Assembly (NCBI RefSeq): GCF_000316645.1
Contig: NC_019677.1
Coordinates: forward strand, 13,479 to 77,478
From: Nostoc sp. PCC 7524
Lineage (GTDB): Bacteria; Cyanobacteriota; Cyanobacteriia; Cyanobacteriales; Nostocaceae
Length of the DNA stretch: 64,000 bases
Reading direction: 5' to 3'
Shown: in pieces, positions 5,286 to 61,208 of the stretch
How the letters are laid out: each line of letters begins with the position of its first letter
Position numbering within the stretch: position 1 is the first letter of the stretch
Notes under the pieces: model-generated
Databases searched by the model: none
What the model was told of the DNA's origin: nothing
Seen by the model: only the letters and a program-made list of their open reading frames with translations
Made by a program: the position numbers and the translations under genes

Positions 5286-5377
5286 GCAATTAACTGATTG
5301 TAGAGTAAAAGCGGTCTTCTGATTGCGATCCGCTAAATTCTTAGAGGAAAACTAGGCGATCGCCATATACGTTGATA

Positions 5378-5531
5378 ACAAGCGGGAGAGGAAACCTCTA
5401 CCGATGGTGTCGAGTCTGCCGTACAGTCATAGGGTTCGGCATGATGCACAATCAAGTTAGGGTCTGTTGTGAAGGAATAGGGAGTTAATGCCCAAGCTGG
5501 TGCATGAGTTCAACTCTCCTCAGATCCACTT
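5378..5531 (+). ncRNA. Structured RNA resembling HEARO / IscB-type omega RNA, with no nuclease gene
   Basis: A compact run of stems with no ORF: AGAGG-AAA-CCTCT near 5388-5400, TGCCG (5417-5421) with CGGCA (5437-5441), CACAA (5447-5451) with TTGTG (5467-5471), and a compound hairpin at 5480-5519 in which GGGAG pairs with CTCTCC, ATGC with GCAT, and CCA with TGG. The order of stems and phrases such as ATGCCCAAGCTGGTGCATGA recall the HEARO motif (RNA partner of IscB/IsrB nucleases), known in cyanobacteria. No HNH/RuvC ORF follows; nuiA starts 210 nt downstream. The family name is from memory, the fold is visible. Confidence 0.5.
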
Positions 5532-5560
5532 TTTATAGAAGAAGTAAATATACAGTAGCA

Positions 5561-5592
5561 ACCGCTTTGGGACATGATTAACCCAGAGCGGT
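5561..5592 (+). terminator. Stem-loop after the structured RNA
   Basis: ACCGCTTTGGG (5561-5571) pairs with CCCAGAGCGGT (5582-5592) at 10 of 11 positions around a 10-nt loop. T-rich sequence follows weakly. It may end transcripts of the structured RNA or precede nuiA. Confidence 0.45.
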
Positions 5593-5742
5593 TATTGATT
5601 TGTAGAAAGTATTGGGATAATTGTCTTATTGTCGAGACTGGCGAATGGGCTGGTGTTACGATTTCAGTAACTTTTTGCCATGATGTCGTAGTTTTTTTAG
5701 GCTGATTATGTTAAATCTCCCCTAGCGATCGCAATAAATTTT

Positions 5743-7084: not shown

Positions 7085-7650
7085 TTGTGAGTGTTATATG
7101 TATTTATTTGTTTAACTACAATTGTTTGCGCTAAAGTTACAGAAATTAAGTAAAATTTAGCAATTGCAATGTAGCTTGGGTTTTATAAGAATAGGTAAAT
7201 AAGCAGTAAACGCCACATTAACGTTTAGTAATCATTTAGGTGATTGCTTTAAATTAAAATAATAAAAACTATCAGAAATTTATGTGTTATTTAGTCCAAA
7301 AAATGATGATTATCTAGTAGCCTATTGCTAATTTTTCTAGAGGGAAGTCAGCAATAAGTAGAGTGAGAGTTGCGGCGATTCTCCTTTGGAGAGGCAGGGA
7401 CAACGCGCAAACCGCAGTGCTGGAAGCAATCGCTTTGTTACTCCTGAGCGATCGCCAGGGTTTAGGGCGTAAGCTCTTTTCTTAGAGGAAAAGTCAGCGA
7501 TACCTACGGTAAGCTACGCTAACGCCTAGAAACTAAATTTCCCAGCAGGATTTACTCAAGTTGAGGTTCATGATTATACTCATCAAGAGATAGGCTGTAC
7601 TATCAGCTAAAATAATCGCGATCGCTACTTGTAAGGCTCATCTAGAAAGT
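7085..7650. other. Gene-free interval with HIP1 sites and a dispersed 12-mer
   Basis: The part next to nucA is AT-rich and probably holds its promoter. The right half holds degenerate HIP1-type octamers, the exact 12-mer TTCTTAGAGGAA at 7479-7490 and short inverted repeats. No convincing ORF or RNA gene. Confidence 0.5.
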
Positions 7651-8523: not shown

Positions 8524-8786
8524 AAGCGATGCCTACGCACTCTTTGAATTTTTCCTCTAAGAATATCGCCAAGCAATGACGAATTGCCCACAAGATAAGC
8601 GTTCGCTTGCTTTGGATACTATTTTTTAGTACATTTGTATTTACTGAACTGCTGAGAGTAAGCCATACAGAGTCCCTACCGAAAGTGTGGGGATTTTATT
8701 TTGTTGGCGGGGGTGCATTCACAGTAGCTATTGACTATGAACTGTTGGCTATGGACTAATGACTAATAACTAATAAGCATTGACTA

Positions 8787-9113: not shown

Positions 9114-9315
9114 TTGTATAGAACACTGTCGGGGCTTGAGGGCGATGCCTACGGCGGTAAACTACACTCTTAATTCGAGCGATCGCAAGTAGCGTCTCGT
9201 TCGCGGAGCGTCTCCGACAGGAGAAGAGAGGAAAACCCAAGCGTAGGCGATAGTCCACCGTAGGCATCGCACAGTGGAGACTTTTCCTCTAAGAATTTGA
9301 TTTTATAGCTACTTT
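9114..9315. repeat. Patchwork of interspersed cyanobacterial repeats
   Basis: Contains TAGTTTACCGCCGTAGGCAT in inverse orientation (9142-9164, shared with 32970-32992), a GCGTCTCGTTCGCGGAGCGT-type inverted repeat near 9193-9212 and the 12-mer TTCCTCTAAGAA at 9284-9295. No gene seen. Confidence 0.55.
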
Positions 9316-9798: not shown

Positions 9799-10002
9799 TT
9801 CGGCGTTTGAGATGAACTTTCCATCATTTCAAAGTATCATTAGTTTCCCCGCTCTGACTCTACCTGATGATTGAATAAGTGTAATGCTTACCCACAAGAG
9901 CATAGACGGCATCGCTGCTTTGGTGTTTATCCTCTAAGAATTTCAGGAGACAGGCGATCGCTTATAGTTTGGTTTTTCCTCTAAGAATTTTCTGGGGGTG
10001 CG

Positions 10003-10913: not shown

Positions 10914-11015
10914 TGAGTTGACCAAATTCAGTAAGCCTACGAGCTTTTTACTGGTAAATGGGGTAATTGGCAAGATATCTAGGCTACTTTTCACATGGTT
11001 GCAATGGGGTTTCCT

Positions 11016-12224
11016 CTAAGAATCGGAGGGGCGATCGCCTATTTCATGAAAATAGCGGGAAAATAAAAGTTGTGCAGCCTGACGATGTTTTTCCACTAAT
11101 TCAGGAGGAGATAAGACTTCTACCTTATCCATATAACGATAAACCCACAAACTAAACTCATCTAAAGAACGAGGTGGTAAATCTACAGCATATTCTACAA
11201 ATGTATATTCTCCAGTGATTTTGTTTATGGGTCCTTTAGTAATTTTTTGACGGAGATGACGACGCTCTCCTTCTAAAATAAAAGCTGATACTGGTGAAAA
11301 AAATCGCACTTTAACAGGAATGAATGCCAGTTTCCCAGCTAATTCTAATTGTTGTGGTTCTGGTTCTCCTAAATTAAAACCCCAACCGTTTTCAAATAAT
11401 TTATAGGCTTTGGCTAAACTTTCTCTTTGTTTTTCTAACCCCCGTGGTTGTATTTTCAACGGGTAGCAGTGGCTATTGAAACGATTTAAACGTCCCATTA
11501 CTAAATGCCCGGTTTCATAAATTTCATATAGTAAATACCAAGCAATATCATAGTAAATTAACTGTAAAGGAAAGACTTGAAAACGTCCAATGCGATTGGA
11601 ATTATAAAGGTCACGACTGCGAGAAATTTCAATTGCTTGTCCTTGATTAACGGCTTGTTCTAATAATGGTAATTGATGAAATAGCGTATCTTGGTGTTGT
11701 CCCCTTGCTGCCATATCTTCTGGATCTGTATAATTAATGGCACGGTTGAGATGTTGACGAGTAGGGTAAAAAAATTCGCCTTTGAGTTCCATATCTAACC
11801 CTCGTAATCTTTTACTGAGAGTTTCATAAATGCGTCTAACTTGGGCATCACCTTGATATTGCGCTTGAGACGCTAGTGCGTTAAAGGCTACTTTTAATTC
11901 TGTGGTAGAAAGCGCACCAGTTCCTAAATAATATCCCCAGCGATACATCCGACGGTCAAGAATACCGTAATTTCTGAGAGTTTCTAAATCTTTTCGTAAG
12001 GTAGGAGTTGCCGGATAACCATCTGGTAATTGTATATTTAATTCTTTCGCTAATTCCTGTAAATATATCCGTACCGAACTAAGTGCATCATGATTTTCAT
12101 TATTATTAGAGTCAATAAAATCAGGACTACCTATACCTGGATATTTTAAAAAGGTAGCAATTAACAGTAGCAAACGTTCAAAAGCTAAACGTTCTGTGTA
12201 AGGGTGAGCAGGTTTTTTAGGCAT
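11016..12224 (-). CDS. WYL-domain transcriptional regulator next to the CRISPR-Cas locus
   Basis: 402 residues. The N-terminal region (about 10-110) resembles a winged helix, including TPTLRKDLETLRNYGILDRR. The middle (about 190-270) has the WYL-type beta barrel (FQVFPLQLIYYDIAWYLLYE). WYL proteins sense nucleotides or ssDNA and often sit beside CRISPR loci; in Synechocystis the WYL protein Sll7009 represses a CRISPR system. It is divergent from csx18-cas1-cas2, so a regulator of this locus is the natural inference. Confidence 0.85.
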   Translation of the reverse strand: MPKKPAHPYTERLAFERLLLLIATFLKYPGIGSPDFIDSNNNENHDALSSVRIYLQELAKELNIQLPDGYPATPTLRKDLETLRNYGILDRRMYRWGYYLGTGALSTTELKVAFNALASQAQYQGDAQVRRIYETLSKRLRGLDMELKGEFFYPTRQHLNRAINYTDPEDMAARGQHQDTLFHQLPLLEQAVNQGQAIEISRSRDLYNSNRIGRFQVFPLQLIYYDIAWYLLYEIYETGHLVMGRLNRFNSHCYPLKIQPRGLEKQRESLAKAYKLFENGWGFNLGEPEPQQLELAGKLAFIPVKVRFFSPVSAFILEGERRHLRQKITKGPINKITGEYTFVEYAVDLPPRSLDEFSLWVYRYMDKVEVLSPPELVEKHRQAAQLLFSRYFHEIGDRPSDS

Positions 12225-27953: not shown

Positions 27954-28182
27954 TACTTTACCTGAATGCTCATAGAGTTAGTTTTACTAATTGTACATTG
28001 CAAATTTATCAAAGATTAAGGGTCAACCTGAGTTTAGACATTTCCCATGCTGCATCTTGAGAAAACGCAACTATAACAATAAGCGATCGCCTCCAACCAA
28101 ATTCTTAGAGGAAAAATCAAGTATGCGATCGCCCCTGTAAAGGGCAAACTACCAGTAGAACCGCCCCTGTAAACATCTACCT

Positions 28183-30051: not shown

Positions 30052-30078
30052 AGGAAAACCTAAGCGTAAGCGATCGCT

Positions 30079-30509: not shown

Positions 30510-30551
30510 TTCTTAGAGGAAAAGAGTGATCGCTTTTTATTCTTAGAGGAA
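30510..30551 (+). repeat. Two copies of the dispersed 12-mer TTCTTAGAGGAA (representative site)
   Basis: Exact copies at 30510-30521 and 30540-30551. Elsewhere: plus orientation starting at 5338, 7479, 28102, 30045, 37477, 41419, 53453, 55920 and 61093; minus orientation at 8552, 9284, 9976, 11011, 35726, 37017, 44183, 46860, 48691, 49769, 53508, 54807, 59509 and 60762. One-mismatch copies start at 9929, 35845, 41981, 46651, 48245, 56627 and 59449. One more copy is split by the IS at 33.9 kb. Many sit beside GCGATCGC octamers. Confidence 0.9.
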
Positions 30552-35849: not shown

Positions 35850-36116
35850 CTAAGAATCAAATAATGATAATTGACCAGGGGAAATATTAGATTTACCACC
35901 CCTGTGATAATAAAGATGACAGGCACTGCAAAGAGCTATTAAATTCTCACGCCGATTATCAGCAGGGTTTCTATTCCAATGATGGACTTGCAATGTATAA
36001 ACTCTGCTTAATAGTTTTTCTCCTGGTTTAGTACACTGCAAACCACATTTTTCACAGCACCATTGCGCCTGCTGCTTAATTTCGGTTGCCATTTCTTTCC
36101 AATCGTCAGGATACAT
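35850..36116 (-). CDS. HNH endonuclease
   Basis: 88 residues: CEKCG, then LQVHHWNRNPADNRRENLIA and CSACHLYYHRGG, the complete HNH fold with a structural zinc from two CxxC pairs. It ends in GQLSLFDS, similar to clamp-binding peptides. Free-standing; target unknown. Confidence 0.88.
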   Translation of the reverse strand: MYPDDWKEMATEIKQQAQWCCEKCGLQCTKPGEKLLSRVYTLQVHHWNRNPADNRRENLIALCSACHLYYHRGGKSNISPGQLSLFDS

Positions 36117-36695: not shown

Positions 36696-37814
36696 TTATT
36701 TCTTACTCTTTGCCCTCCTAATAAAACCAATAATCTCCTCAAGTGGCACACCCTCTTTCTGCATTGATTGAATTATTGCGATCGCACCCACAGGAATACT
36801 GCCAATACTTCTGCCCTTCCACTCACCGTCTATCTTCTCTTCCCAATTGAAGCCCCATCTCCAATGAGTAGGATTATCAGGCTTTCTGTTACCAATTACA
36901 CGGGGGTAGCTGGCAATTGTTCCATCCTTCAACTTCTTATTTTCAAGATATTTGTACAAGCATCCCTTGCGCTGTCTGCCTTTAGACTTCTGCACAGCTT
37001 CTGGCTGCGGCTGACTTTCCTCTAAGAAATTCACTGGTGTCCATCCACACACGCCACAACCATCTTCAAGTTTGAGTAGTGGTGATTCACAGCTAGGGCA
37101 ATGTACATCTTGAATTTGCGGTGTACGCTGCAACTCAAGCTGGTGGGATTGTAAAACTTGTATTCTAAGATTTTCTTCCTCAATAATTGATTGAGAAGAA
37201 GCGATCGCAGTATCCCTCTCTTTTTTATGCTTGCAATTGGCTATTAAATCATCAATGCGCCATTGCTGTCGGGAAATCCTCTGTTGGCATAATTTAATCT
37301 GCTCCTCAATAGGCAAAATATCACAGCGAATAAAGCACGGATCATTCTCATCTATCCCTAATGATGAGGGTACAGGATGCAAACCAGAAGCAGCACGCCA
37401 GAATTGCTCGGTATCTGGCTGTATATCTGCAATGTCTACGGCAATGATAAATTTATTGCCCATCTTTACATCAATTTTCTTAGAGGAAATATTGGTAATA
37501 ATTCCCCAGTTCCAATCTGAGTAATATTTTTCCTTGTGATGGGCGACTTTTACGCGTTGGCCTACTGAATAAGTCTCTTTATGCTCTAATTTCTTGTAAT
37601 TCCAAGCCTGCATTTGCTTGGGGGTGTATTCAGCAGATAAACCGTTTTCCCAGGTGATAGTGATTTTCTTGTTGTGTACACTCGTGACTTCACCCAAATG
37701 ACCACCAGGGGCAATAATGCGTTCGCCTACTTGAAACGAGCCAATTTCATAGTTGCCACCAGAACTTTTAACTTTAGAAGAGACTTTAGCTGAATCAACA
37801 AGCGTCTTAGTCAT
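36696..37814 (-). CDS. Hypothetical plasmid protein with SH3-like repeats, coiled coil and zinc ribbon
   Basis: 372 residues. Two SH3-like barrels near the N-terminus (FQVGERIIAPGGHLGEVTSV and YSVGQRVKVAHHKEKY), a coiled coil at about 165-220, a zinc ribbon (CPSCESP and CGVCGW) near 240-260 and a basic C-terminal domain. It lies 6 nt after dnaB on the same strand, so a role in plasmid replication or DNA handling is likely. Two copies of the 12-mer lie in its coding sequence. Confidence 0.6.
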   Translation of the reverse strand: MTKTLVDSAKVSSKVKSSGGNYEIGSFQVGERIIAPGGHLGEVTSVHNKKITITWENGLSAEYTPKQMQAWNYKKLEHKETYSVGQRVKVAHHKEKYYSDWNWGIITNISSKKIDVKMGNKFIIAVDIADIQPDTEQFWRAASGLHPVPSSLGIDENDPCFIRCDILPIEEQIKLCQQRISRQQWRIDDLIANCKHKKERDTAIASSQSIIEEENLRIQVLQSHQLELQRTPQIQDVHCPSCESPLLKLEDGCGVCGWTPVNFLEESQPQPEAVQKSKGRQRKGCLYKYLENKKLKDGTIASYPRVIGNRKPDNPTHWRWGFNWEEKIDGEWKGRSIGSIPVGAIAIIQSMQKEGVPLEEIIGFIRRAKSKK

Positions 37815-37820: not shown

Positions 37821-39209
37821 TCACCTAAGATTTTTAATAATTCCGTAGGTCTTATCAAAGAAAACGGCGGCTGTACCTGTCTCACCATGCCGTGCCTTAG
37901 CCACAATTAGTTCTAAAATTCCTTGGTCTGTAGTATCTGGGTTATAGTATTCGTCGCGGTAGGCCAAGATAATATTGTCTGCTACCATTTCTAGGATTCC
38001 CGACTGGCTCAGGTCGCTCATCATCGGACGTTTATTCTGCCTACTTTCTACTCCCCTGGATATTTGTGATAGTGCTAGTACAGGTACATCCAAATCCCCA
38101 GCCATTTTGTAAAGTCCTCTGGCCACATCACCTAGTTCATAACTGCGATTACCACCAGAGTCCTCTGCCATCATTTGCAGATAATCAACCACAACCAAAC
38201 CTAACTTTCCTTGTTTGGCTTTAATTTGACGACATTCACTAGCAATTCCAGAAACAGTGATGCCTCTGGAGTCATTCATGTATAGAGGCAGTTCTGAGGC
38301 AATGTTAACAATTTTGGCAATGGTGGCGAATTCCCAGTCTGCTAGGGGTTTATTACCTGAACGATGTCTGCGGATGCGATCGCTTCTTAGTGGCGTTACA
38401 CCTAAATGTTTGTAGGCATCAGTGACACTAATTAAACTCCATAACCTGTACTCTAACTGCTTTTTAGTCATCTCCAAGGAGAAAATAGCCACTGGTAAAT
38501 TGTGGAGAAGAATCATTTGGAGTGCCAAAAATAAAGCAATCTGGCTTTTACCCATTGATGGCCTGCCGCCAACTATGGTGAGTGTGCCATTTTCAAATCC
38601 CAGCAATAAATCATCAAGCTCATGCAGTCCTGTAGGGTATATGGGGTTATTTGTATCTAATTGCTCGTAGGCAGCAATATTAATTGTGCTGTTATGTTCG
38701 GTGTTGGAATTAATGGTTTGATGAGCAACCTGAAACACCTTCTGCTCTGATTGATCCATGATTTTGGGTAACTCAGTTTCCGTCTCATAACCTAGATGCA
38801 CAATTTCATTGCCGGCTTTAATCAACTGCCGTCGCAGATATTTATCCATTACTAACCCTGCCAAGGCATCGATGTTAACAGCTGACACAGTGCGGTCTAC
38901 CAAAGCTGCTAACTTATTTCTGCCGCCGATACGGACAAGTAAATCGTGGTCAGCAAGCCAGTTGGTAATCGCTAGCAAGTCTGTGGGTTTACCCTGACTG
39001 TGGAGTAGCACAGCTGCTTGATAAATATCTTTGTGGGCGCTGATGTAAAAAGCTTCTGGAATTAAGCGATCGCTGACTCTAGTGATCGCTTCTGGGTCTA
39101 GCATGATTCCACCCAAGATAGCCTCTTCCGCCTCAATGTTTTGAGGTGGCAGGCGGTCATGACTTAACCGTTGAAAACTTAGTTCTTCAGTCATACTGTG
39201 TTCCCACAC
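37821..39209 (-). CDS. dnaB: Replicative DNA helicase DnaB
   Basis: 462 residues. The N-terminal DnaB domain starts PPQNIEAEEAILGGIMLDPE; the RecA-like motor has Walker A GGRPSMGKS, the LEMTKKQL segment, VVDYLQMM as Walker B and SRGVESRQNKRP with the arginine finger region. It unwinds DNA at the fork as a hexamer. The start overlaps the initiator gene end by 19 nt. A plasmid-coded copy beside an initiator gene suggests self-loading at the plasmid origin. Confidence 0.96.
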   Translation of the reverse strand: MWEHSMTEELSFQRLSHDRLPPQNIEAEEAILGGIMLDPEAITRVSDRLIPEAFYISAHKDIYQAAVLLHSQGKPTDLLAITNWLADHDLLVRIGGRNKLAALVDRTVSAVNIDALAGLVMDKYLRRQLIKAGNEIVHLGYETETELPKIMDQSEQKVFQVAHQTINSNTEHNSTINIAAYEQLDTNNPIYPTGLHELDDLLLGFENGTLTIVGGRPSMGKSQIALFLALQMILLHNLPVAIFSLEMTKKQLEYRLWSLISVTDAYKHLGVTPLRSDRIRRHRSGNKPLADWEFATIAKIVNIASELPLYMNDSRGITVSGIASECRQIKAKQGKLGLVVVDYLQMMAEDSGGNRSYELGDVARGLYKMAGDLDVPVLALSQISRGVESRQNKRPMMSDLSQSGILEMVADNIILAYRDEYYNPDTTDQGILELIVAKARHGETGTAAVFFDKTYGIIKNLR

Positions 39210-40015
39210 ATTCGCATAGCTTGCCGACGTTGTTCTTCAAGTTCCTCGTGAAACTTTTGCATCATTTCCCTACCCCGACCGCTTCTATATTCTGGCTCTT
39301 GCGCTTTTTGGGTAGCCGCTACAAATTTTTCGTAATAAACCTCCCAACGGTTTTTCCCAGCCTTATTGGTGTGTGCTAACCAAGCCTCAATATCGTTTAC
39401 TGGCTTGCTCAAATTCTTGGTTTTTTCCTCACAAAATTCCAAAAAATTCGCTCGCTCTTCTTCTGAGAGAGTATTTATAAATTCTGAATAAGTCTTATTA
39501 ATCTTAGAGTCCTGCGGTTCTTGCTCAGTAGGCACTTCAGGCTCTTGGTGGGAAATTCTGTTCTCGGTCGGGAAATTCTGTTCCCGGTCGGGAAATTCTG
39601 TTCCCAAGTGGGAATTCTTTTTCTCAAGTGGGAAATTCTGTTCCTGGGTGGGAAATTCTGTTCCCACTTGTGTGACAGTTGGCGTAGTGTCACAGTCAAA
39701 AATTGGCTCAGAGGTTTCCTCCGCTCCCAACTTTTCAAGACACAAACACCCACCAGCAGAAACTTTTACCGAGTAATCAATGTCTTCTAAATTGATGTAG
39801 CCTTTTTCCTCTAACACTGCGATCGCTGCATTAACAGCACGTTTAGTAATTCCCAAATCCTCAGCAATCTTGGAGGCTCTAATTTTCATGCCATTGCCAT
39901 AAGGATCAAGCGATCGCACATAGTAAAGAATACTGATTTGGGATTTGGTAAGGCTTTTACAAATTTTTACCCATTCAGAGTTTTGTAGTGGGTAGAATTT
40001 ACCGTCTATCTTCAC
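39191..40015 (-). CDS. Putative replication initiator (phage O-like arrangement) with internal iterons
   Basis: 274 residues from GTG 40015. Residues about 18-75 form a winged helix (KSQISILYYVRS, IRASKIAEDLGITKRAVNAA), a central linker (about 115-157) is encoded by six 20-bp DNA repeats, and a charged helical C-terminus (EFCEEKTKNL to EELEEQRRQAM) precedes dnaB. Winged-helix initiator, internal origin repeats, then helicase is the lambda O-P / P22 gene 18-12 plan. The replication role is inferred from this layout. Confidence 0.65.
   Translation of the reverse strand: MKIDGKFYPLQNSEWVKICKSLTKSQISILYYVRSLDPYGNGMKIRASKIAEDLGITKRAVNAAIAVLEEKGYINLEDIDYSVKVSAGGCLCLEKLGAEETSEPIFDCDTTPTVTQVGTEFPTQEQNFPLEKKNSHLGTEFPDREQNFPTENRISHQEPEVPTEQEPQDSKINKTYSEFINTLSEEERANFLEFCEEKTKNLSKPVNDIEAWLAHTNKAGKNRWEVYYEKFVAATQKAQEPEYRSGRGREMMQKFHEELEEQRRQAMRMCGNTV
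39551..39670. repeat. Six tandem 20-bp iterons inside the initiator gene; candidate origin
   Basis: Units start at 39551, 39571, 39591, 39611, 39631 and 39651, core GGAAATTCTGTTCCC. The fourth unit is the most diverged. The 20-bp period is not a multiple of three, so the protein repeats only every 60 bp and all three frames stay open, which points to selection on the DNA. Confidence 0.75.
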
Positions 40016-41408: not shown

Positions 41409-41432
41409 ACCATAGTTTTTCTTAGAGGAAAA

Positions 41433-41938: not shown

Positions 41939-41983
41939 ATGTAACCGCATTTTTGAGCAAAGTAACAGCGTCCTTGGTAATTC

Positions 41984-44287
41984 TTAGAGGATCGCGAGTA
42001 ATTCTTTAGCCAAATCTTTAGGTGAATTAATCCCTTTTAAAGTTTTGCGTTTGCCTTTCAATACAAGCTCAATTCGCTGTTGTTTTTGAATTAACAGGTC
42101 ATCAATTGCTTGGTCAACATGGCCTAACTGTAACCATGTTGCAAACACAGCATTTTGTTGACCAAGGCGATGACATCTATCCTCGGCTTGCTCACAATCA
42201 CCAGGAGTCCAAGCGCGATCTACCAAAATTACGTTACTAGCAGCTGTTAGAGTTATACCAACACCACCAGCTTTAATAGTACCAACGAAAACTTTTTTAT
42301 CACCCAATTGAAACTGATCAATTAATAACTGCCTTTCAATTGGTTTAGTTTCACCAGTGAGTAATAGTCCATCAAGTTCAGTTGCGATCGCCTTCGCGCT
42401 TTCTACAAACTCAGTGAAGATTACCACTTGTTCACCTTGTTCTAACAGTTCCCCCGCAGTTGCGATTGCTGCCTCAACCTTAAACTCACTGCCTACTTTC
42501 CGCAGAATATTAAGGGTTGCCAATGCCTCAGCTTCAGGGTCAGCCGGATTGTAAGCCAATACCCAACTTAACCACAGTTTAAAAGATGAACATTTAAACA
42601 GTATTGGTAGGTTGTATTTGAATTTCTTACACTGCGATCGCCGGCGGTAATCATCTACTAATAATCTGACTGTATCTTGATATTCATCTAACTGTTTAGT
42701 TTCAAGTTCAACCTTTTCAAATAAACGTGTTTTATCTGGTAGTTCTTTTAGGCACTGTTGTTTAGTGCGTCGTAATATGACATCCTCTGTTTTCTGTGAC
42801 AATTCATCAAGATGTGATGCGCCTGTATTGTCCCAAACTGTTTTTCTGCCAATATCCTTGTGATAAGCATTACAATAACGACGCTCATAATCATATTTAT
42901 CATTTGCTAAAGGATGATTAACCGCGCATAGTAATGGATAAAGGTTAACTGGTCTACCATTTTTAATTGGTGTCCCAGTCAGTAACCATGCTGTTAAACA
43001 ATTCTCATGATGTGCTAATTCCAACATCTTTTTTGTTCTGGCACTGGCAATATTCTGAGCATAATGGGCTTCATCACAAATCAGCACATATTTTTTAGTT
43101 TCAAGTGGCTTTGGTAACTTTGCCCAGCTAAAGCACTCAATCTTGACTTCAGCACGGGATGCCTCGCGTACCCAATTATCCATCACAGATACAGGAGCAA
43201 TCACAAACACCGGACAATCGTGTGTACGCTGCATTGCTCTTGCTGCAACTAAAGCTGTAAGCGACTTTCCTAATCCCATGTGATCTGAGAGAATCCCCCC
43301 GGTGTAAATCCCACCGCGACGGTGAGCAAGTAGCCACTCTACACCTTTTTTTTGGTAATCACGCAGATACCAGCCATTAGCCAAAGGTGCATTCAAATCA
43401 GCAGCTTCTACGAATTTGACAATTTCATCAGCCATAGCTAAAGCCTCAGCTTCCTTGGCTGCTTTCTCTTCCTCAAGTTGCATTTGAGCTAGAGCGATCG
43501 CGCCCTTAAACTGTGCTGATATATGAAATTCATCTGTAATCAGTTTTTCTTTGACTTCTAAACTTTTGTTAATAGGAAAACGCCAGGATTTATCACTACC
43601 CTCAAACCTATAACCTTCAATGGTCTTACAATCTCGCTGAAATTTACCAGATGAATCATAAGGAGCGTACACAGCAATTAAATCGCCCTTTACCTCTACT
43701 CGCTTCTCTGGAATATACTGCTGACCGTTATCATTAATAGCTCCTACTTTGGGAGAATCTTCAGGGTATTGATGCTCTATTAAATCCCACTGTGGTAACT
43801 GCAAATTTCCCCTATTTAGCTGCTTTTCGTATTTATGCAGTATTTTTAAGGCAGCTTTGGCGTGGGCTTTGATAATAGGCTTTTTATCTCTAATTCTGCT
43901 AGCTAGCCAATGCCCAAAGCCAGCATCAGCACCATTAAAGCCTGCTCCATCCTGAGAGTAAGCATAATCGCACCTATCAGCTAAATAAATGATGCAATCT
44001 TCTAGAGAGCGATCGCATCTTTGCTCTTTCTTCTCCTCAATGATGAGGGGAAGTTCTAGCTGGAGCTTGATTAAATCCTCTAATTCTAAATTTTTAATTG
44101 AATCACGTATAAGTTCTAAGCTACTTGCAGAGATGATCTGAGGTGATAAACCATTATCTAGCGATCGCGCGTATCGCTCAATTTCCTCTAAGAATATTTC
44201 GGGAACTCGTACAGCTTTGGTAGGTAAATGTTGCCAAGCTGCTTTTTGCTTGGTTAGATGCTCAGTTTTCGGATGATAGTTTGGCAT
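41984..44287 (-). CDS. SNF2-family helicase (SMARCAL1/HARP-like layout)
   Basis: 767 residues. The N-terminal third holds a region that resembles a HARP-type module (VYAPYDSSGKFQRDCKTIEG, WRFPINKS). Then Walker A DHMGLGKSLTA, DEAH box CDEAHYAQN, LLTGTPIKN, and the second lobe VVIFTEFVESA, GGVGITLTAA and AEDRCHRLGQ. These enzymes translocate on dsDNA and anneal or remodel it. Probably used in plasmid DNA maintenance or repair. Complete and in frame. Confidence 0.93.
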   Translation of the reverse strand: MPNYHPKTEHLTKQKAAWQHLPTKAVRVPEIFLEEIERYARSLDNGLSPQIISASSLELIRDSIKNLELEDLIKLQLELPLIIEEKKEQRCDRSLEDCIIYLADRCDYAYSQDGAGFNGADAGFGHWLASRIRDKKPIIKAHAKAALKILHKYEKQLNRGNLQLPQWDLIEHQYPEDSPKVGAINDNGQQYIPEKRVEVKGDLIAVYAPYDSSGKFQRDCKTIEGYRFEGSDKSWRFPINKSLEVKEKLITDEFHISAQFKGAIALAQMQLEEEKAAKEAEALAMADEIVKFVEAADLNAPLANGWYLRDYQKKGVEWLLAHRRGGIYTGGILSDHMGLGKSLTALVAARAMQRTHDCPVFVIAPVSVMDNWVREASRAEVKIECFSWAKLPKPLETKKYVLICDEAHYAQNIASARTKKMLELAHHENCLTAWLLTGTPIKNGRPVNLYPLLCAVNHPLANDKYDYERRYCNAYHKDIGRKTVWDNTGASHLDELSQKTEDVILRRTKQQCLKELPDKTRLFEKVELETKQLDEYQDTVRLLVDDYRRRSQCKKFKYNLPILFKCSSFKLWLSWVLAYNPADPEAEALATLNILRKVGSEFKVEAAIATAGELLEQGEQVVIFTEFVESAKAIATELDGLLLTGETKPIERQLLIDQFQLGDKKVFVGTIKAGGVGITLTAASNVILVDRAWTPGDCEQAEDRCHRLGQQNAVFATWLQLGHVDQAIDDLLIQKQQRIELVLKGKRKTLKGINSPKDLAKELLAIL

Positions 44288-46585: not shown

Positions 46586-46678
46586 TTAATAAATCTGCGA
46601 TCCCTTTGGGGTCGCTCTCTCTTCTCTTCGAGACGCTACGCGAACACTTCATCCTCTAAGAATTTGGCAAATGTATCT

Positions 46679-46831: not shown

Positions 46832-46889
46832 CTCTAAAGCGATCGCTCTCTCGCTTCATTTCCTCTAAGAATATTTAAGGTATCCGACC

Positions 46890-48210: not shown

Positions 48211-48265
48211 TCACAGTTAGTTGTGTAAGCATCAATCCTCTTTTATCCTCTAAGAATTTATACCA

Positions 48266-48655: not shown

Positions 48656-48728
48656 GTTTTAGAGCGATCGCTTTATTGGGGTGATCGCTTTTCCTCTAAG
48701 AATTTATGAAATTTGTGTAAACTATGCC

Positions 48729-49627: not shown

Positions 49628-49777
49628 ATGAACGAAGAACTGAGCGAATTAATTAACGCTGATTACCCACTATCTGATCCAAGTTGGGATTACTCACAGA
49701 TTTGGACTCACTCTCAGGAAGCAGCAGCGCAGTTGCAACAGCATACAGGCGATCGCACCTATAAAATTTTCCTCTAA
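49628..49777 (+). CDS. Small 49-residue protein upstream of the ERF gene
   Basis: MNEELSELINADYPLSDPSW onward, acidic. AGGACACTTTT precedes the ATG as a weak ribosome site. Its stop codon is supplied by the 12-mer TTCCTCTAAGAA (49769-49780), and the ERF gene starts 12 nt later, so coupling is likely. Confidence 0.5.
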   Translation: MNEELSELINADYPLSDPSWDYSQIWTHSQEAAAQLQQHTGDRTYKIFL

Positions 49778-49789
49778 GAATTTGCAACC

Positions 49790-53384: not shown

Positions 53385-55002
53385 ATCTGGTAAGTATGGA
53401 AGCACAGCCTATGAGTATGAGAAAAATTCGTACCCAAAGGCTATGATTGATTTTCTTAGAGGAAACAAGCGGGAGGCGATCGCATTCCTTCAAGCTGATG
53501 ATGCAGATTCCTCTAAGAATGGTCACATTTTAGGATTTGATTTTTACTCAGGGTTTACTCTAAAAGGTCAAGTTAGGAAATATTTTGGTTTTGGTGAATT
53601 TCTCAGCCCCAGCTACAAATCCCGAATGAGGGAAGGAATGAGACTTTTTACCAAAGTTGACCCACTAACTCAACACTTCTCACAGCCTAGAAAATTTTGG
53701 GAAAGGTCAACTGACAACTGTACAAGCTGGGTAGATTGTCGCAACACTGACAACCTCCGCGCTATGCGAGATAGCAGCGTTTATCTGATGGCTGAAGAAG
53801 CTGGAAACGAGCGTACACTGCAAATATATAAAGATAGGATACGTTTGAGAGTGCGATCGCTCTACATGATTGGTCAAGGTGAATGGGATAGTCCTATTTA
53901 TTTGGGTCACACAATCACCAGTTATGTAAACTTGTACGATTTTGCTAAGGATGAAGAGGTTAGAGCGATCGCAAAGTCAGCGTTAGATTGGTTTTTTGTC
54001 ACCGGAGCGTTGAAGTATTGGCGTGGTGGTTTTGGTGGGCCAAGTAAGCGAGATAATAGCGGCGGTAATTGTGCGTGGTGTTCTGGTGCATCTCGCGCAC
54101 TGGGCTTGTATTTTGGGGATTCACCAGTAAAGGATAATTCACAAGATACTGATTTAATTCATCTCATCACCAGCAGCTACAGGCCACCCGCCGCCGCAGT
54201 TGCCCTGGCGCAAAAACAATTCACCAAACCTCTAGAATTACTAAATTCCAAGCCACAGTATGAAAACTGGAAACCTGGAAAAAGCGATAAACCAGAGTTT
54301 CACGAGACTTTGTATTTTGGTCATACATTCCAGCTTGGTACTTTGGCACAGGGTAGCGGCGGTGATTGGAACGGATTTAAGCTGATGGCTTTTAATTCCC
54401 ACAGGGGGATTGATTATTTTATCCCTACATCCTCATCAGGTAACAATGCTGTGGGGCAGTATCAGAATTTGGCGATTTGGTTAAATGATGCAAATTCATC
54501 ATTCCAGTTTTTTTTACCTAAGTCTGCACACACAGAAATCAAGCGAGGAAAATTATTTATTAAATTGGAGAAAACTTGGCTAGCGATAACTCCGTTAAGC
54601 TCCGCTAACGCACCTATCAACCTACAATTTGGTGTAACTAAGGATGTAAAAAATTACCCAAATGACCATATTTTAACTGCCAGTGCGATAGGTGAAGGGA
54701 TTAGCGGCTTTGTGCTTGAAGTAGGAGAGGGTGAAAGTTGGGAACAGTTCAAGTATTCTGTGTTGGGTTCTCAATTAAAGATAGACAATCAAACGGCTGA
54801 ATACATTTCCTCTAAGAAAATTAGAGTGCAACACCAGGGGCGATCGCTTCCTAAAGTATGGAGAAATGGAAAGTTACATGATTGGGGCAATCATTTTGAT
54901 GTGTATCAAAGCGATAAGCCGTTAATTCATCAAGGCTGGAAATCTAAAAGCTTAAATCTCAGCATCCTTGATGGTCAGCACCAAAAGCTTGAGTTTAAAT
55001 AA
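53263..55002 (+). CDS. Exported protein, possible polysaccharide-processing enzyme
   Basis: 579 residues from ATG 53263 (MRKLFAVFLLIISQSPAIAQ), with a cleavable signal peptide. The middle (about 150-290) is helical, the C-terminal half beta-rich with GHTFQLGTLAQGSGGDWNGF, a layout reminiscent of alginate or heparin lyases (toroid plus beta sandwich). No catalytic residue can be named. Overlaps the O-antigen-ligase-like gene by 122 nt. Two 12-mer copies lie in its coding region (53453, 53508). Confidence 0.65.
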   Translation: MRKLFAVFLLIISQSPAIAQWTPELEAGFQQRKREYLEKFESGKYGSTAYEYEKNSYPKAMIDFLRGNKREAIAFLQADDADSSKNGHILGFDFYSGFTLKGQVRKYFGFGEFLSPSYKSRMREGMRLFTKVDPLTQHFSQPRKFWERSTDNCTSWVDCRNTDNLRAMRDSSVYLMAEEAGNERTLQIYKDRIRLRVRSLYMIGQGEWDSPIYLGHTITSYVNLYDFAKDEEVRAIAKSALDWFFVTGALKYWRGGFGGPSKRDNSGGNCAWCSGASRALGLYFGDSPVKDNSQDTDLIHLITSSYRPPAAAVALAQKQFTKPLELLNSKPQYENWKPGKSDKPEFHETLYFGHTFQLGTLAQGSGGDWNGFKLMAFNSHRGIDYFIPTSSSGNNAVGQYQNLAIWLNDANSSFQFFLPKSAHTEIKRGKLFIKLEKTWLAITPLSSANAPINLQFGVTKDVKNYPNDHILTASAIGEGISGFVLEVGEGESWEQFKYSVLGSQLKIDNQTAEYISSKKIRVQHQGRSLPKVWRNGKLHDWGNHFDVYQSDKPLIHQGWKSKSLNLSILDGQHQKLEFK

Positions 55003-55974
55003 TGACCGACGCATTTTAGCCCATGATCTATATGTTTGGGCTTTGGTATTGTCTAATGTATTTTGTCTAGTGAGATAAGTTTCTGTGTCGCTGTTACCTC
55101 TGCGATACCTAATTTCAAACACTTTAAACTGGTCAACTGCCCTGGTTGCCACTACCTGAGAGGTTTGGTAATCAGTTCTGGCTTCGTCAAATTCAACTAA
55201 TAACTCTGTAACTTTAGTGCGGATTGTATCAGCTAGTTGTGCGCGGTTGCGTTGCAGTTCGGCTACTTTTATCTGTAAATCACCAATTGCGATCGCATTC
55301 CTTTGAGCATCAGCATTCCCGCCCTGTGTGCCTTGAAATAGCGGTATTCCAATGATATTCAATAAGCCATTTATTATCCCCGTGTCACCCCTAAAGATGG
55401 AAGCGATATTATCAATTAATCCATTCCCCTTTTGTGGTTGACCTGATATGGGAGTTGGCCCCAATAAATATTGCAGTGCTGGGGTGAGGATAGATAATTG
55501 AATTGATTTTTTATTCCTAGCTTTAGCTTCATTGATGCGCTCGTTGGCCTCGTTAATTCGTGCATCGATTTCTTTGAGCAGTGGGGATTGGGCGATCGCT
55601 CTATCCTGTAATTGTTGTAAACACACCGCCGAAGTTTCTAGGCAAGGAAGCCCACCGCGCAGCAGCCGCCACATATCATCATTAAATTCTTTTTGGATGA
55701 TTGCATCTATGCTGGGCTTGTTAAATGGGTTTTGCTCAGGTTTAGGTAATTGTGAATCAGCATCCTGATCCGCTTGTGGCGCGTCTTCTGGGCTTACTTC
55801 CTCCTGTGGTTCTTTTTCCTCCGGCTGCTCATTTTCATCGCTTGGCGGGGTTTTGGTTGGTGGTGGTGCGGGTACTTTTATCGGTACTGGTGCTGGTGAC
55901 TGTGCTTGTACTTCCCCCATTCTTAGAGGAAATAGGAGTAGGACTAATAGTAACAACCGTTGTATATTTTCCAT
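54952..55974 (-). CDS. TolC-like outer-membrane efflux protein
   Basis: 340 residues from ATG 55974 (MENIQRLLLLVLLLFPLRMG), signal peptide, then a long Pro/Glu-rich linker (residues 30-85) and coiled-coil helices (DARINEANERINEAKARNKK, FEIRYRRGNSDTETYLTRQN) as in TolC-family exit channels. Shorter than classical TolC. Works with the HlyD-like protein encoded just upstream. Its 3' end overlaps the convergent gene by 51 nt. Confidence 0.75.
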   Translation of the reverse strand: MENIQRLLLLVLLLFPLRMGEVQAQSPAPVPIKVPAPPPTKTPPSDENEQPEEKEPQEEVSPEDAPQADQDADSQLPKPEQNPFNKPSIDAIIQKEFNDDMWRLLRGGLPCLETSAVCLQQLQDRAIAQSPLLKEIDARINEANERINEAKARNKKSIQLSILTPALQYLLGPTPISGQPQKGNGLIDNIASIFRGDTGIINGLLNIIGIPLFQGTQGGNADAQRNAIAIGDLQIKVAELQRNRAQLADTIRTKVTELLVEFDEARTDYQTSQVVATRAVDQFKVFEIRYRRGNSDTETYLTRQNTLDNTKAQTYRSWAKMRRSLFKLKLLVLTIKDAEI

Positions 55975-58022: not shown

Positions 58023-59105
58023 TTAAATGCGTTGATAAAAAGGCTTTATCTTAGTATGAAATCCATCGCTATCCATTCTGATTAAAGCCTCTAACGGTTG
58101 TAGATTAGCGATTAAGTTGACTGCAAATCTAAATCTACGTGCAACTTTAGTAACTTCTACTTGATCTACTCCGAGAACCATCTTAGTTGAGGAATTGGCG
58201 AGAACAGTATTAGAAATATCTGAATCCATCTGACTAGCAACGATTATTCCTAATCCAAATTTTCGCGCCTCACTGGTGATTTTCTCAAGAGTATGAGATG
58301 ATTTGATTTCTTTTACTTCATCTAGTAGAGCATAACAGCGTGGAACTCTACCATCAATTTCGCCCATCAACTTGTGACTGTCGAAAAGCTGTTTTAAGAG
58401 GGTTTCTGCTGCGATCGCACTCAACCCTGGTACTTTAGATAATGCAGACAAGTCAAATCTGACAACAGGGAAATTCATTGATGGTTGAGGTTTGCTGAAA
58501 ATTCCGTATTTGAAAGTAGCAGCCAGTTTTAACAATAACTTCTGTGAATCCTTACAACCATCTTCTACCCGACTTTGCAGTTCACTTTCTAAGTCAGCAA
58601 AGGTAGGAGGTTGATTAACCCAACTTGACTGCTTTTTCTGAAAAATACCTCTATTTTCGTAGCAACTTATAAAGGCATTTAAAATCAAACCCTCTTGATT
58701 ATCTCCCATCTTTAAAGACTTTCTTAGGATAGATGAGACAGCGATCGCTTGTAAATCCGGTCCACCACCTTTTGGATCTAAATCAAGAACTAATGGATTT
58801 AGCCCATGTGGTGATTCAGCATTAAGAGAGTAACAAACTTCTCCAGGTAATTCCAAATCTCCATGAAAATCGGAAATGACTATTTTGATATCAGGAAACA
58901 ATAACGGTAATTCGTGAGCAAGTGCTTTAAGTGTCTGAGTTTTACCACTTCCAGAAGTTCCGAGAATAACAACATGACCGTTGCGAAGCTTGGCAGGATT
59001 CCACCAGACTTTATCACCTAGTAGAATACCGTCTGTTGATGATTCTGTATTAACTTTTTTAGTCTGGTTAGGTTTGAGAGTTTGGGTTGGTAGTGGTTTA
59101 GGCAT
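58023..59105 (-). CDS. HerA/TraG-like ATPase
   Basis: 360 residues. Walker A LGTSGSGKTQTLKA at about 49-62, KIVISDFHGDLEL after it, Walker B CYALLDEVKEI and GLGIIVASQMDSD near the C-terminus follow the HerA/VirD4 superfamily of ring DNA pumps. With the AAA ATPase and membrane protein downstream on the same strand it may form a DNA-transfer or membrane-anchored complex. No relaxase was found. Confidence 0.75.
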   Translation of the reverse strand: MPKPLPTQTLKPNQTKKVNTESSTDGILLGDKVWWNPAKLRNGHVVILGTSGSGKTQTLKALAHELPLLFPDIKIVISDFHGDLELPGEVCYSLNAESPHGLNPLVLDLDPKGGGPDLQAIAVSSILRKSLKMGDNQEGLILNAFISCYENRGIFQKKQSSWVNQPPTFADLESELQSRVEDGCKDSQKLLLKLAATFKYGIFSKPQPSMNFPVVRFDLSALSKVPGLSAIAAETLLKQLFDSHKLMGEIDGRVPRCYALLDEVKEIKSSHTLEKITSEARKFGLGIIVASQMDSDISNTVLANSSTKMVLGVDQVEVTKVARRFRFAVNLIANLQPLEALIRMDSDGFHTKIKPFYQRI

Positions 59106-59164
59106 GGGGTATTGGGGACTGGGGACTGGGGTAATAAGTAATGAGTAATGAGTAATGAGTAATG
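59106..59164. repeat. Short tandem repeats (GGGGACT and AGTAATG units)
   Basis: GGGGACT-type units run from 59106 to about 59132 and AGTAATG is repeated four times at 59138-59164. Typical Nostocales STRR sequence, between the HerA-like and YdjM-like genes. Confidence 0.75.
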
Positions 59165-59196
59165 TTAGCGGTAGCGCGGCGTTTAGCCGGTAATGA

Positions 59197-60240
59197 CTAT
59201 TGACTATTCGTGTTTATAATCCTCACTTGTAACTGACCTGTACCAAACTCTTCACCTAACTTACTTTGCACAATTCCAAGCGGTGCAGCTTCTAAGGTAA
59301 CTGTGCTGTCACTGGCTCTGATGTAGGGAAATTGGTAGGGGTCACGCGGCAAGGTTACACCGTCGAGAGTATCAAATGACAGCTGACCAGAAATAAACAC
59401 CATCGCCCCGGCGCGGTTAAATTTTTCTAGTGCTGCCCCTATTGGCTCATCCTCTAAGAAAATGGCTTCAATATTTGTGATGGCTGGTTTCCCTACATCA
59501 GCTGTAATTTCCTCTAAGAAAATCTGGCTATCTGGTTCAGTGGAAGCTTTGTAAATTTTGTTGTCGTCGGACTGAATTAAAAAGCCTGTACCTAAGCTTT
59601 GAATGATAAGAAATTGACCAACAACTCTGGATCTGTCGGTTGTCCTCACTCCCTTGATATTGGCTTTAATCAAGTGCGTACTGCCTGATTCGTTGTAAAT
59701 ACGTTGTACGCCAGAAGGTGAGGCAATTAGGCGGTTGAATTGAGTTAATATTCCGCCAGAGTTATTGATATTGAAAATAGCCAGAGCGATCGCAATCAGC
59801 ACCACCAACACAAAATACTCAGCATTACTCCCAGTTCTTAGCCGTAGGTTACGATTACCTGGGCAGACGCACCGCACCGGTGACGGCCAAAACATTTCCA
59901 CACCACCACGAGTAAACACATCAGCAAACCAGCCAAAGGTATAACCAATGTTGAGAGCGTGGACGAGGTTGATTAAACGGGGATTAAACAGTGCAATTCC
60001 ATAACCAACAACTGCAACAACTGCACTGGCAATTAAGCTGTGGGTACAGCTGCGGTGTGGCATTTTACTTTCAAAAAAACTGCTGATCCAGGGAAGGACA
60101 CGACCGGCTGGGGATGTGGACACATCGATGTCGGGGAGAAGACCAGCGATCGCACCCACTGCAATCACCGTAGGGCTAGCAGTTCCCAATAATAATGATG
60201 TAGCAGTGCCACTGATTAAGAGATGGGAGATGCCAAGCAT
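59197..60240 (-). CDS. YdjM-like (DUF457) membrane metal-dependent hydrolase
   Basis: 347 residues. GLLPDIDV, PHRSCTHSLIAS and GYTFGWFADVFTRGGVEMFWP supply the Asp/His metal ligands of the YdjM/DUF457 family, set among four or five membrane segments (residues 1-170). The C-terminal 170 residues are a soluble beta domain not typical for the family. Its start overlaps the AAA gene end (ATGCTT at the stop), so the two are coupled. Role unknown. Confidence 0.75.
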   Translation of the reverse strand: MLGISHLLISGTATSLLLGTASPTVIAVGAIAGLLPDIDVSTSPAGRVLPWISSFFESKMPHRSCTHSLIASAVVAVVGYGIALFNPRLINLVHALNIGYTFGWFADVFTRGGVEMFWPSPVRCVCPGNRNLRLRTGSNAEYFVLVVLIAIALAIFNINNSGGILTQFNRLIASPSGVQRIYNESGSTHLIKANIKGVRTTDRSRVVGQFLIIQSLGTGFLIQSDDNKIYKASTEPDSQIFLEEITADVGKPAITNIEAIFLEDEPIGAALEKFNRAGAMVFISGQLSFDTLDGVTLPRDPYQFPYIRASDSTVTLEAAPLGIVQSKLGEEFGTGQLQVRIINTNSQ

Positions 60241-61208
60241 TAGCGGATTCTCCTATCTTCACGCGGTAAGTTGTACAGTAGGCGAGACAGTCCCAAGAAT
60301 ATGGCCGCGGCGATACCTCCAAAAATATAGAGTGCTTGGTCATTTGTACCTAGTCCGATAAACCGCATAATCACAAAGGCGATACCCGCCAGGAGTATTA
60401 AGGGTGTGATATCAAAATAACGGCGGTGGTCTGCACCTTCAACTTCCAGCCCCAGGTATTCTTCATCCACAGCTCGCGCTGCCAGCATCGGATTTCCCCC
60501 GGCGCGTTCTTGCAGTTTGGCTAGTTCCGAGGGTTTAAGTTGAATTTCCCTGTCAGCTGCTGCCTGCACCATAATCTCTCTAATTGCGTACTCTGGCAGG
60601 GGTTTTAATTCGATGCGGGGAATATTGATAAAGATATCCGTCCTGGGTGGGTCAGTGGCTAAAAGTAACATTGGTACGTTACTACGCCGCAATTGCTTCA
60701 GCCACATCCTAAATTTAGTGTCGCAACTGTGGGCATCATCCACTATGAGAAAGGCTGTATTTTCCTCTAAGAATTGGGCGATCGCTCTTTTTAATTTGTC
60801 GGCTGTTAATGATTTTCCCTCTAAATCCTCAGTGGGAATATCAAACTGATGGGCAATTTCTAACAGCATTTGTTTAGGTGTCGCCGGTTCAATGAAAGCC
60901 ACTGTGAACTCGTCACCCTGCAATTTCTCTACTACAGCACTAGCTAGTACAGATTTACCACTCCCATCCTCACCGGCGATCAGAATTGCACCATTAGCCA
61001 GTAATGATGCTGTAGTGCGGTTTAGTTCGGTTTGTCGGTAAATTTTAAATTCACCAGGCGCAGCTATTTCGTCAGTTGTGTCTGGGTCGTTTTTCTTAGA
61101 GGAAAACTTGGGTATAAATGCAAATACTCCACTTATCCCTAATGCCAACAATGACACAGGATTTAGCCCGTTGAGTGCGACAATTGCACCAGTTGCCATC
61201 ATGCCCAA
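60240..61208 (-). CDS. Membrane-anchored AAA ATPase (ExeA/TniB-like motor)
   Basis: 322 residues. One N-terminal membrane segment, Walker A AGEDGSGKSVLASAV at about 79-93, Walker B AFLIVDDAHSC, sensor region PMLLLATDPP, and two C-terminal membrane segments (about 265-310). The motor resembles ExeA/TniB STAND-like ATPases. It lies between the HTH gene and the YdjM-like gene in one operon. Confidence 0.7.
   Translation of the reverse strand: MGMMATGAIVALNGLNPVSLLALGISGVFAFIPKFSSKKNDPDTTDEIAAPGEFKIYRQTELNRTTASLLANGAILIAGEDGSGKSVLASAVVEKLQGDEFTVAFIEPATPKQMLLEIAHQFDIPTEDLEGKSLTADKLKRAIAQFLEENTAFLIVDDAHSCDTKFRMWLKQLRRSNVPMLLLATDPPRTDIFINIPRIELKPLPEYAIREIMVQAAADREIQLKPSELAKLQERAGGNPMLAARAVDEEYLGLEVEGADHRRYFDITPLILLAGIAFVIMRFIGLGTNDQALYIFGGIAAAIFLGLSRLLYNLPREDRRIR

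Follow-up and report, generated by a model that had tools for sequence, protein, structure and literature searches.

The DNA analysed here, which we call the window, is a 64-kb stretch (positions 13479-77478) that makes up most of the 77,478-bp plasmid of Nostoc sp. PCC 7524, a cyanobacterium whose genome consists of three contigs with a total of 6.72 Mb. The window contains a replication operon of three genes in which a helix-turn-helix (HTH) protein and a dnaB-type helicase are followed by a protein that we denote GCLYKY, as well as a type III-B (Cmr) CRISPR-Cas locus, in which cas1 and cas2 are accompanied by an array of some 63 repeats, and a module that encodes a HerA/VirB4-like ATPase, a YdjM-like membrane protein, an AAA ATPase, and TolC-like and coiled-coil-like proteins (Table 1). 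The subject of the present analysis is a short word, the 12-mer TTCTTAGAGGAA with its 11-bp core TTCTTAGAGGA, that is dispersed across most of this plasmid and, as we argue below, might be the binding site of the GCLYKY protein.

The first-pass annotation of the window reported 25 exact copies of the 12-mer, 11 in one orientation and 14 in the other, and the recount reproduces these numbers (11 on the plus strand and 14 on the minus strand) and coordinates, whereas the seven reported copies with one mismatch become eight, namely six that end in ..GGAT along with TTCTAAGAGGAA at 1135 and TTCTCAGAGGAA at 56627. With up to two mismatches allowed, there are 43 matches in the window, a number that none of 100 dinucleotide shuffles attains (9.4 +/- 3.1). 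The conserved core is the 11-mer, found in the context AAW-TTCTTAGAGGA-WRA with little conservation beyond; it occurs 40 times on the whole plasmid, that is, once per 1.9 kb on average, against 0.05 copies expected under a third-order Markov model, and 31 of these copies (12 on the plus and 19 on the minus strand) fall within the window. Read from the sequence, the 11-mer is an imperfect inverted repeat, TTCYT..ARGAA. How strict the word is can be gauged from 27 motif-bearing sequences (931 kb, partly overlapping and chosen for carrying the motif), in which 411 exact copies are found against 0.67 expected but only 67 one-substitution variants against 20.7 expected; a W precedes the 11-mer in 396 of the 406 unique contexts and directly follows it in 401. 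A strict word, far above chance and with few near variants, is what characterizes the highly iterated palindromes (HIPs), of which HIP1, GCGATCGC, is the target of an orphan methyltransferase in cyanobacteria. Alignment of the flanks of the motif copies revealed no longer shared repeat around the site, so that the copies do not belong to one longer repeat family; had they done so, this would have spoken against the original observation. A literature search for the 12-mer returned four papers, all of which, judged by their titles, deal with unrelated subjects, and no such plasmid word is named in the titles and abstract beginnings covered, which included few subscription journals.

The word is largely confined to plasmids of a certain kind. 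Of the 36 copies of the 12-mer in the genome, 33 reside on the 77,478-bp plasmid and 3 in the remaining genome; the equal density on all replicons that would have deprived the motif of its significance is not observed, given that the chromosome of the same strain and the examined motif-free plasmids are far below. At least one 12-mer is present in 63 of 99 related genomes, mostly in one to four copies, and seven or more in 10 of 100 genomes (our own included); among the places listed for these motif-rich genomes, the copies are often massed on one or two contigs. On some related Nostocales plasmids, the 11-mer reaches densities of 0.8-6.6 copies per 10 kb, with 37 copies on CP026695, 30 on AP025735, 20 on CP050441, 7 on CP046707 and 6 on AP018301. 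The whole record of CP040298 has 6 copies in 216 kb, one of which adjoins a fragment of the GCLYKY domain, and the whole records of CP091914, CP011383 and AP018225 have none. Among 12 plasmids chosen by ParB similarity, 4 carry the word and 8 have 0-1 copies in the stretches fetched. The distribution can also be uneven within a single replicon. In the plasmid pn2 (CP117770, 291.6 kb), all 48 copies of the 11-mer lie in one 105-kb arc and the other 186 kb hold none; because a 50-kb piece of the motif-free arc carries a CyRepA1 gene of its own and has a HIP1 density of 2.6 per 10 kb, whereas a piece of equal length from the rich arc reaches 17.2, pn2 is suggested to consist of two fused replicons. 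Likewise, the 17-kb block of the Nostoc plasmid that includes the CRISPR-Cas locus (window 11050-28050) has no motif copy, with P = 0.0015 for a gap of this length. A viral origin of the motif was considered and rejected: when viral contigs were scanned for the 14-mer, all of the at least 80 matches listed were single copies per contig.

The positions of the copies are conserved between plasmids. When the region of the HerA/VirB4-like module is aligned over five plasmids, five of the six site columns are common to four or five of them and the flanks vary, in DNA between genes as well; at 59449..59460, the other aligned plasmids differ from the 11-mer by several substitutions, without a gap. 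Across all pairs at 65-95% identity with alignable flanks, the 11-mer is identical in 276 of 394 homologous comparisons although the flank identity of 79% predicts, by our own arithmetic, about 7.5% intact 11-mers. The differing comparisons comprise 86 with substitutions but no change in length (13 have one, none has two and 73 have at least three), 31 with small indels and a single clean gap. This combination of frequent identity and differences that are substitutions implies that selection, or some force equivalent to it, maintains the sites, and that both gain and loss occur mostly in place. In four annotated plasmids (115 copies; the Nostoc PCC 7524 plasmid is not in this sample), 68 copies are intergenic against 24 expected. 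The initial claim that the constraint acts on DNA is borne out by these data; the accompanying claim that the copies lie in different frames is true only in part, since 38 of the 47 copies within genes are in frame 0, reading FLEE or FLED in the sense orientation or SSK in antisense, and some other frames through the motif would hold a stop.

So which protein could read this site? Our candidate is the product of the last gene of the replication operon, in which the HTH protein encoded by the first gene shows weak likeness to lambda-O-type initiators and DnaD-like loaders. The GCLYKY protein (the domain names used here are descriptive and read off the sequence) consists of an N-terminal part, a zinc-ribbon-like stretch with CPxC and CxxC, a linker and a C-terminal GCLYKY...HWRWGFNWEEK domain. 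The family is defined by the last ~90 residues, with 156 homologues in a protein search (at least 120 of them listed); a Pfam search gave no family for the protein at E<0.05, and two AlphaFold models, in which strands followed by two helices are predicted, had no trustworthy PDB match in Foldseek and VIA. A structural match of the GCLYKY domain to an AP2 domain was considered as well, and an AP2-like DNA-binding fold would be a tentative assignment. Some relatives are fused to Dam-type or 5-methylcytosine (m5C) methyltransferases (one m5C member matches PF00145, E 9e-31). Many GCLYKY genes themselves hold the word upstream of the domain, in sense (FLEE) or antisense (SSK), and at the protein level, 113 of the 121 matches to the domain are preceded by FLE[ED] at a distance of at most 45 residues. 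Arrays of the motif within the gene are present in G055:C132, where three sense copies and one antisense copy stand in a row, and in G017:C27, Nodularia (there of a variant word) and L125; the GCLYKY gene region of the latter (L125:5016-5633) holds a dense array of at least 10 oppositely oriented copies. Where the gene is fused to an m5C methyltransferase, the conserved F-L peptide is encoded with TTA for leucine in 22 of 22 cases and with TTC for phenylalanine in 21 of 22, a constancy which indicates that the nucleotides are held.

In the first comparison of gene families, over 10 motif-rich and 8 motif-empty sequences, the best tracking was a tie, at 9 of 10 rich and 0 of 8 empty, between the GCLYKY protein and a 236-residue protein that we label SWIM-like from its sequence, without a Pfam match; the one rich sequence without GCLYKY is the pn2 piece, and the one without the SWIM-like protein is G033:C3. 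Beyond this set, GCLYKY appears to track the site better. A GCLYKY match is found in 20 of 100 genomes, including 8 of the 10 motif-rich ones (at least seven 12-mers) versus 12 of the 90 others (p 2e-5), and in all 8 motif-rich genomes with the gene, it is located on a motif-rich contig. From a scan of a one-genome-per-species collection, we obtained 70 GCLYKY loci, some of them from one strain and hence not independent, in which m5C fusion was called by sequence motifs and checked by Pfam for one member. The 48 loci without the fusion have 2.54 copies per 10 kb outside the gene (24 have at least three), and the 22 m5C-fused loci have 0.03 (none has at least three). A Fisher value for the strong homologues without m5C fusion is disregarded here, as it omitted one such match, on G050:C4. 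A quick tree was built from 62 of the 74 rows (those with fewer than 70 aligned residues or less than 5 kb of flank were dropped; the columns are few and many forks open); in it, 20 m5C-fused rows form one group with support 99, all motif-poor, and the label changes 9 times compared to 20.7 when shuffled.

Other readers among the genes of the plasmid have been tried. The idea, raised at the outset, that the motif is a segregation mark of the resident ParA/ParB does not hold up: CP091914, which encodes a ParB 84% identical to the resident one, has no copy in 247 kb, and two of the densest plasmids, AP025735 (30 copies) and CP026695 (37), lack a close ParB in the ~50 kb of each that were compared. 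Moreover, a parS-type site would be a palindrome near parAB, whereas here we have an imperfect inverted repeat with copies across most of the plasmid. The YdjM/HerA/TolC module as the reader was also rejected, its tracking being only partial.

The relationship between site and protein may go further than co-occurrence. Nodularia CP020115 encodes a GCLYKY homologue that is 47% identical and accompanied by an altered word, TTCTTAAGGGAA; this 92-kb record has 19 copies of TTCTTAAGGGA and no canonical copy, with 0.02-0.03 expected in 50 kb. Eleven of the 19 precede the annotated gene, which is shorter than the open frame terminating in the domain, and are part of that frame; the other 8 are outside it, at record positions 870-943 (two), 38055 (one) and 45847-46085 (five). 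In Cylindrospermum NIES-4074, TTCTTAAGGGA occurs once in the GCLYKY gene and twice within 3 kb; elsewhere in the 7.7 Mb, there are 4 copies (3 on another contig and 1 on C1) and 5 of the reversed control pattern. The site seems to change with the protein, then, in one clear case (Nodularia) and one slight case (Cylindrospermum). The canonical word is retained at about 50-56% protein identity by Anabaena 90 pANA01, with 8 copies in 80 kb, and by the related loci L148, L151 and L152; no word was found in 50 kb each of Allocoleopsis and Crinalium. Variant words in G058 and G030 were dismissed as examples of dispersed covariation since, in the 40 and 80 kb searched, the 10-mers are all inside the GCLYKY gene stretch. 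A gene with another domain (SIHWR...YPQAYYHW) takes this place in the operon of AP018301; it contains 12 copies of TTACTAGGG, and 2 more lie outside it (0.62 expected in all). The copies in 50-kb stretches of pNe_3 and TIOX110, 9 and 12 in number, are confined to the gene region. The SIHWR-class genes contain TTACTAGGG in both orientations, and 2 of the 3 follow O-like replication genes.

The proximity to HIP1 noted in the first place is confirmed, with 20 of the 40 plasmid copies within 30 bp of a HIP1 site compared to 9.1% of random positions. Among intergenic copies of four plasmids, 14 of 21, 11 of 14, 9 of 16 and 6 of 11 are that close to HIP1, against 18, 15, 20 and 12% of the matching intergenic background. 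Around 390 copies, 156 HIP1 sites at most 30 bp away are downstream and 73 upstream, with no single fixed spacing, and HIP1-HIP1 clustering of a comparable kind is little. HIP1 itself is found at 8.5-18.6 per 10 kb on seven motif-bearing plasmids versus 2.5-6.5 on eight others; G055:C132 (5.2) and the G012:C17 piece (4.0) are low in HIP1 despite carrying the motif.

Because the site is strict, conserved and concentrated on certain replicons, and changes with the protein in one clear and one slight case, it is explained most simply as a strict binding site of the plasmid-coded GCLYKY protein, used across the replicon for plasmid maintenance, a hypothesis that we hold at roughly even odds (about 0.48). 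The place of the gene in the replication operon and the arrays inside the gene itself suggest a role in replication or maintenance. Under this hypothesis, the protein would recognize the site, often arrayed, in its own gene as well as the copies dispersed about every 2 kb, and might coat or sense the whole plasmid through them. The dispersed copies could be initiator boxes that titrate a replication factor, with an effect on copy number and incompatibility, or replicon-wide anchoring sites akin to those of KorB or MatP. With HIP1 often beside the site, binding is perhaps coupled to the methylation state, and methylation is a likely partner considering the HIP1 pairing together with the methyltransferase fusions. 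The original proposal of a site for a plasmid-coded DNA-binding or modifying protein gains from these findings to the extent that the site is specific to a class of plasmids and that the candidate reader is plasmid-coded and has relatives fused to DNA methyltransferases; the binding itself and the role in replication or maintenance are the conjectural parts. Several observations weigh against this hypothesis: the SWIM-like protein did as well as GCLYKY in the first comparison, motif copies were found without a GCLYKY gene in pn2, CP046707, AP018301, G008 and G012, and the motif-rich arc of pn2 without the gene is as long as 105 kb.

The chief competing explanation, albeit an improbable one, is that the site is a HIP-like by-product, made and kept by methylation-directed repair or by a GCLYKY-linked methyltransferase, with no function of its own. 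That HIP words may arise from methylation-directed repair was proposed by Elhai 2015 (PMC4390886). The strictness of the word with its few degenerate variants, the closeness of HIP1, the higher density of HIP1 on motif-bearing plasmids and the fusion of GCLYKY relatives to m5C or Dam-type methyltransferases all fit such an origin. However, the site is AT-rich, non-palindromic and 11 bp or longer, the rest of the genome has just 3 copies of it, its positions are conserved between plasmids, two motif-bearing contigs (G055:C132 and the G012:C17 piece) are low in HIP1, and the m5C-fused homologues are exactly those without dispersed copies. An equally unlikely scenario casts the site as the operator of a plasmid-wide transcription regulator, in a KorB/KorA-like regulon, with GCLYKY or another shared plasmid protein as the regulator. 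The intergenic excess is what such a regulon would produce, as are the 19 antisense copies, where 3.8 are expected, in the 60 bp upstream of a start (none more than 33 bp away), and the presence of a copy in several successive gaps of the ardA/ssb region; but the 47 of 115 copies within genes and the arrays inside one gene speak against operators, and gaps at 3' ends are enriched as much as those at 5' ends (34 and 28). In the ardA/ssb region (L040, L041, L042; window 46860-49780), several successive intergenic gaps have one copy apiece, antisense to the genes, an arrangement that resembles an oriented leading-region element.

Slightly less plausible again is that the reader is another shared plasmid protein such as the SWIM-like one. 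Apart from its tie with GCLYKY, 6 of the 8 motif-rich contigs with GCLYKY also encode this protein, as do AP018301 and pn2 (where it is cut by the end of the stretch), both of which lack GCLYKY; but it was not found on G033:C3, G055:C132, or the 50-kb Anabaena 90 and Nodularia stretches, all of which bear the site or its variant, and it is present on G058:C412 and C244, both with zero copies. There is little to recommend a tag for DNA transfer or uptake read by the HerA/VirB4-like, YdjM-like and TolC-like module. The density of the motif does resemble that of uptake sequences, the YdjM-like gene is on 5 of 8 motif-rich contigs and the module is on six motif-bearing named plasmids or stretches; yet G007:C45 (35 copies) and G017:C27 (15) have no YdjM gene, AP018275, G031, G039, G058 and G019 carry it on records or contigs without a copy, and the remaining genome of the same strain has only 3 copies. 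Finally, the small mobile or template-copied unit that was entertained initially is very improbable: copies are many and some comparisons show dissimilar sequence of the same length (73 with at least three substitutions, none with exactly two), but there is only that one clean gap in 394 comparisons and no longer shared flank.

Returning to GCLYKY as the reader, a broader and more doubtful generalization can be offered. O-like replication operons might encode self-addressed proteins, such that the last gene holds sites for its own product in the linker-coding DNA, with at least two domain classes that have words of their own (GCLYKY with TTCTTAGAGGA and variants, SIHWR with TTACTAGGG). The GCLYKY word would have spread near HIP1 as a mark of long-term residence, absent from new cargo such as the CRISPR-Cas block and from replicons joined by fusion, as in the motif-free arc of pn2. 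If the GCLYKY hypothesis is true, we are dealing with a new replicon-wide system of plasmid marking, with a strict word and a protein family absent from Pfam, for which the natural variants where protein and word shift together make specificity directly testable. It would be a plasmid-confined counterpart of HIP1, the function of which is an old open question, and would physically link the two; it could also be of use in the identification, typing and engineering of plasmids in cyanobacteria, and cargo might be dated by its lack of the word.

Some further observations concern the plasmids themselves. NZ_CP046707 (L033) is listed as linear and encodes a protelomerase-family protein, for which reason linearity with hairpin ends is conceivable for some of the motif-bearing plasmids. 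Matches to the YdjM-like protein are found on 65 plasmid records, most of them cyanobacterial and 10 of Thermus, and the HerA/VirB4-like, YdjM-like and TolC-like module may form a machine for export that spans the envelope. A different over-represented word, ACCACATTA, with AACTGCAAA near it in the list, is common to the motif-free plasmids AP018275 and CP023282 (L044, L038).

Table 1. Motif copies, genes and loci discussed in the text; positions refer to the window unless a locus is given.
Feature	Position	Strand	Remarks
GCLYKY protein gene	36696..37814	-	372 aa; candidate reader; third and last gene of operon
dnaB-type replicative helicase	37821..39209	-	second gene of operon; PF03796 E 5e-69, PF00772 E 5e-27
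HTH protein	39191..40015	-	first gene of operon; PHROG matches, best 9e-6
Type III-B (Cmr) CRISPR-Cas locus	12858-28050
SWIM-like protein	48790-49500
HerA/VirB4-like, YdjM-like, TolC-like module	54952-61888
Exact 12-mer	5338..5349	+
Exact 12-mer	7479..7490	+
Exact 12-mer	8552..8563	-
Exact 12-mer	9284..9295	-
Exact 12-mer	9976..9987	-
Exact 12-mer	11011..11022	-
Exact 12-mer	28102..28113	+
Exact 12-mer	30045..30056	+
Exact 12-mer	30510..30521	+
Exact 12-mer	30540..30551	+
Exact 12-mer	35726..35737	-
Exact 12-mer	37017..37028	-	within GCLYKY gene, sense
Exact 12-mer	37477..37488	+	within GCLYKY gene, antisense
Exact 12-mer	41419..41430	+
Exact 12-mer	44183..44194	-
Exact 12-mer	46860..46871	-
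Exact 12-mer	48691..48702	-
Exact 12-mer	49769..49780	-
Exact 12-mer	53453..53464	+
Exact 12-mer	53508..53519	-
Exact 12-mer	54807..54818	-
Exact 12-mer	55920..55931	+	11-mer kept in 5/5 aligned plasmids
Exact 12-mer	59509..59520	-	11-mer kept in 4/5 aligned plasmids; one substitution in the fifth
Exact 12-mer	60762..60773	-	11-mer kept in 5/5 aligned plasmids
Exact 12-mer	61093..61104	+	11-mer kept in 5/5 aligned plasmids
Exact 11-mer core (..GGAT)	9929..9940	-
Exact 11-mer core (..GGAT)	35845..35856	-
Exact 11-mer core (..GGAT)	41981..41992	+
Exact 11-mer core (..GGAT)	46651..46662	-
Exact 11-mer core (..GGAT)	48245..48256	-
Exact 11-mer core (..GGAT)	59449..59460	-	in this plasmid alone of 5 aligned
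One-substitution relative TTCTAAGAGGAA	1135..1146	-	status unsure
One-substitution relative TTCTCAGAGGAA	56627..56638	-	status unsure
SIHWR-class gene of AP018301	L048:10747-11604
Other SIHWR-class gene	L299:13687-14487
Other SIHWR-class gene	L300:23555-24383

How does this putative system compare with those already known? A part of the genome is marked by strict, dispersed sites in the systems of MatP/matS, SlmA and Noc, which differ from the present case in being chromosomal and in belonging to other protein families. KOPS is an over-represented word, and along with uptake sequences and Chi it marks the chromosome; here, in contrast, the remaining genome holds 3 copies. The lambda O gene contains iterons, so that the origin lies inside the initiator gene, and in their dispersal over the replicon and in site number, the KorB operators of the IncP plasmid RK2 provide a further parallel. 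Uptake sequences and Chi appear as over-represented words in PMC4390886. In R. etli p42d, the origin is inside repC, according to PMC3155836, and the likeness lies in cis-acting DNA inside a gene of the replication operon; the difference is that p42d has no iterons, whereas here the site is also dispersed and the GCLYKY gene is only a putative initiator. The KorB operators of RK2 similarly are several strict sites for one plasmid-coded protein (PMC11790492); KorB, however, belongs to the ParB family and depends on cytidine triphosphate, whereas the word described here does not follow the resident ParB, and its candidate reader is without a known family. There is also a likeness in form to HIP1 and the alternate HIPs, which PMC4390886 presents as strict short words at about one per kb with ties to methyltransferases; but the HIPs are GC-rich palindromes spread genome-wide, and TTCTTAGAGGA is AT-rich, 11 bp or longer, asymmetric and nearly confined to plasmids.

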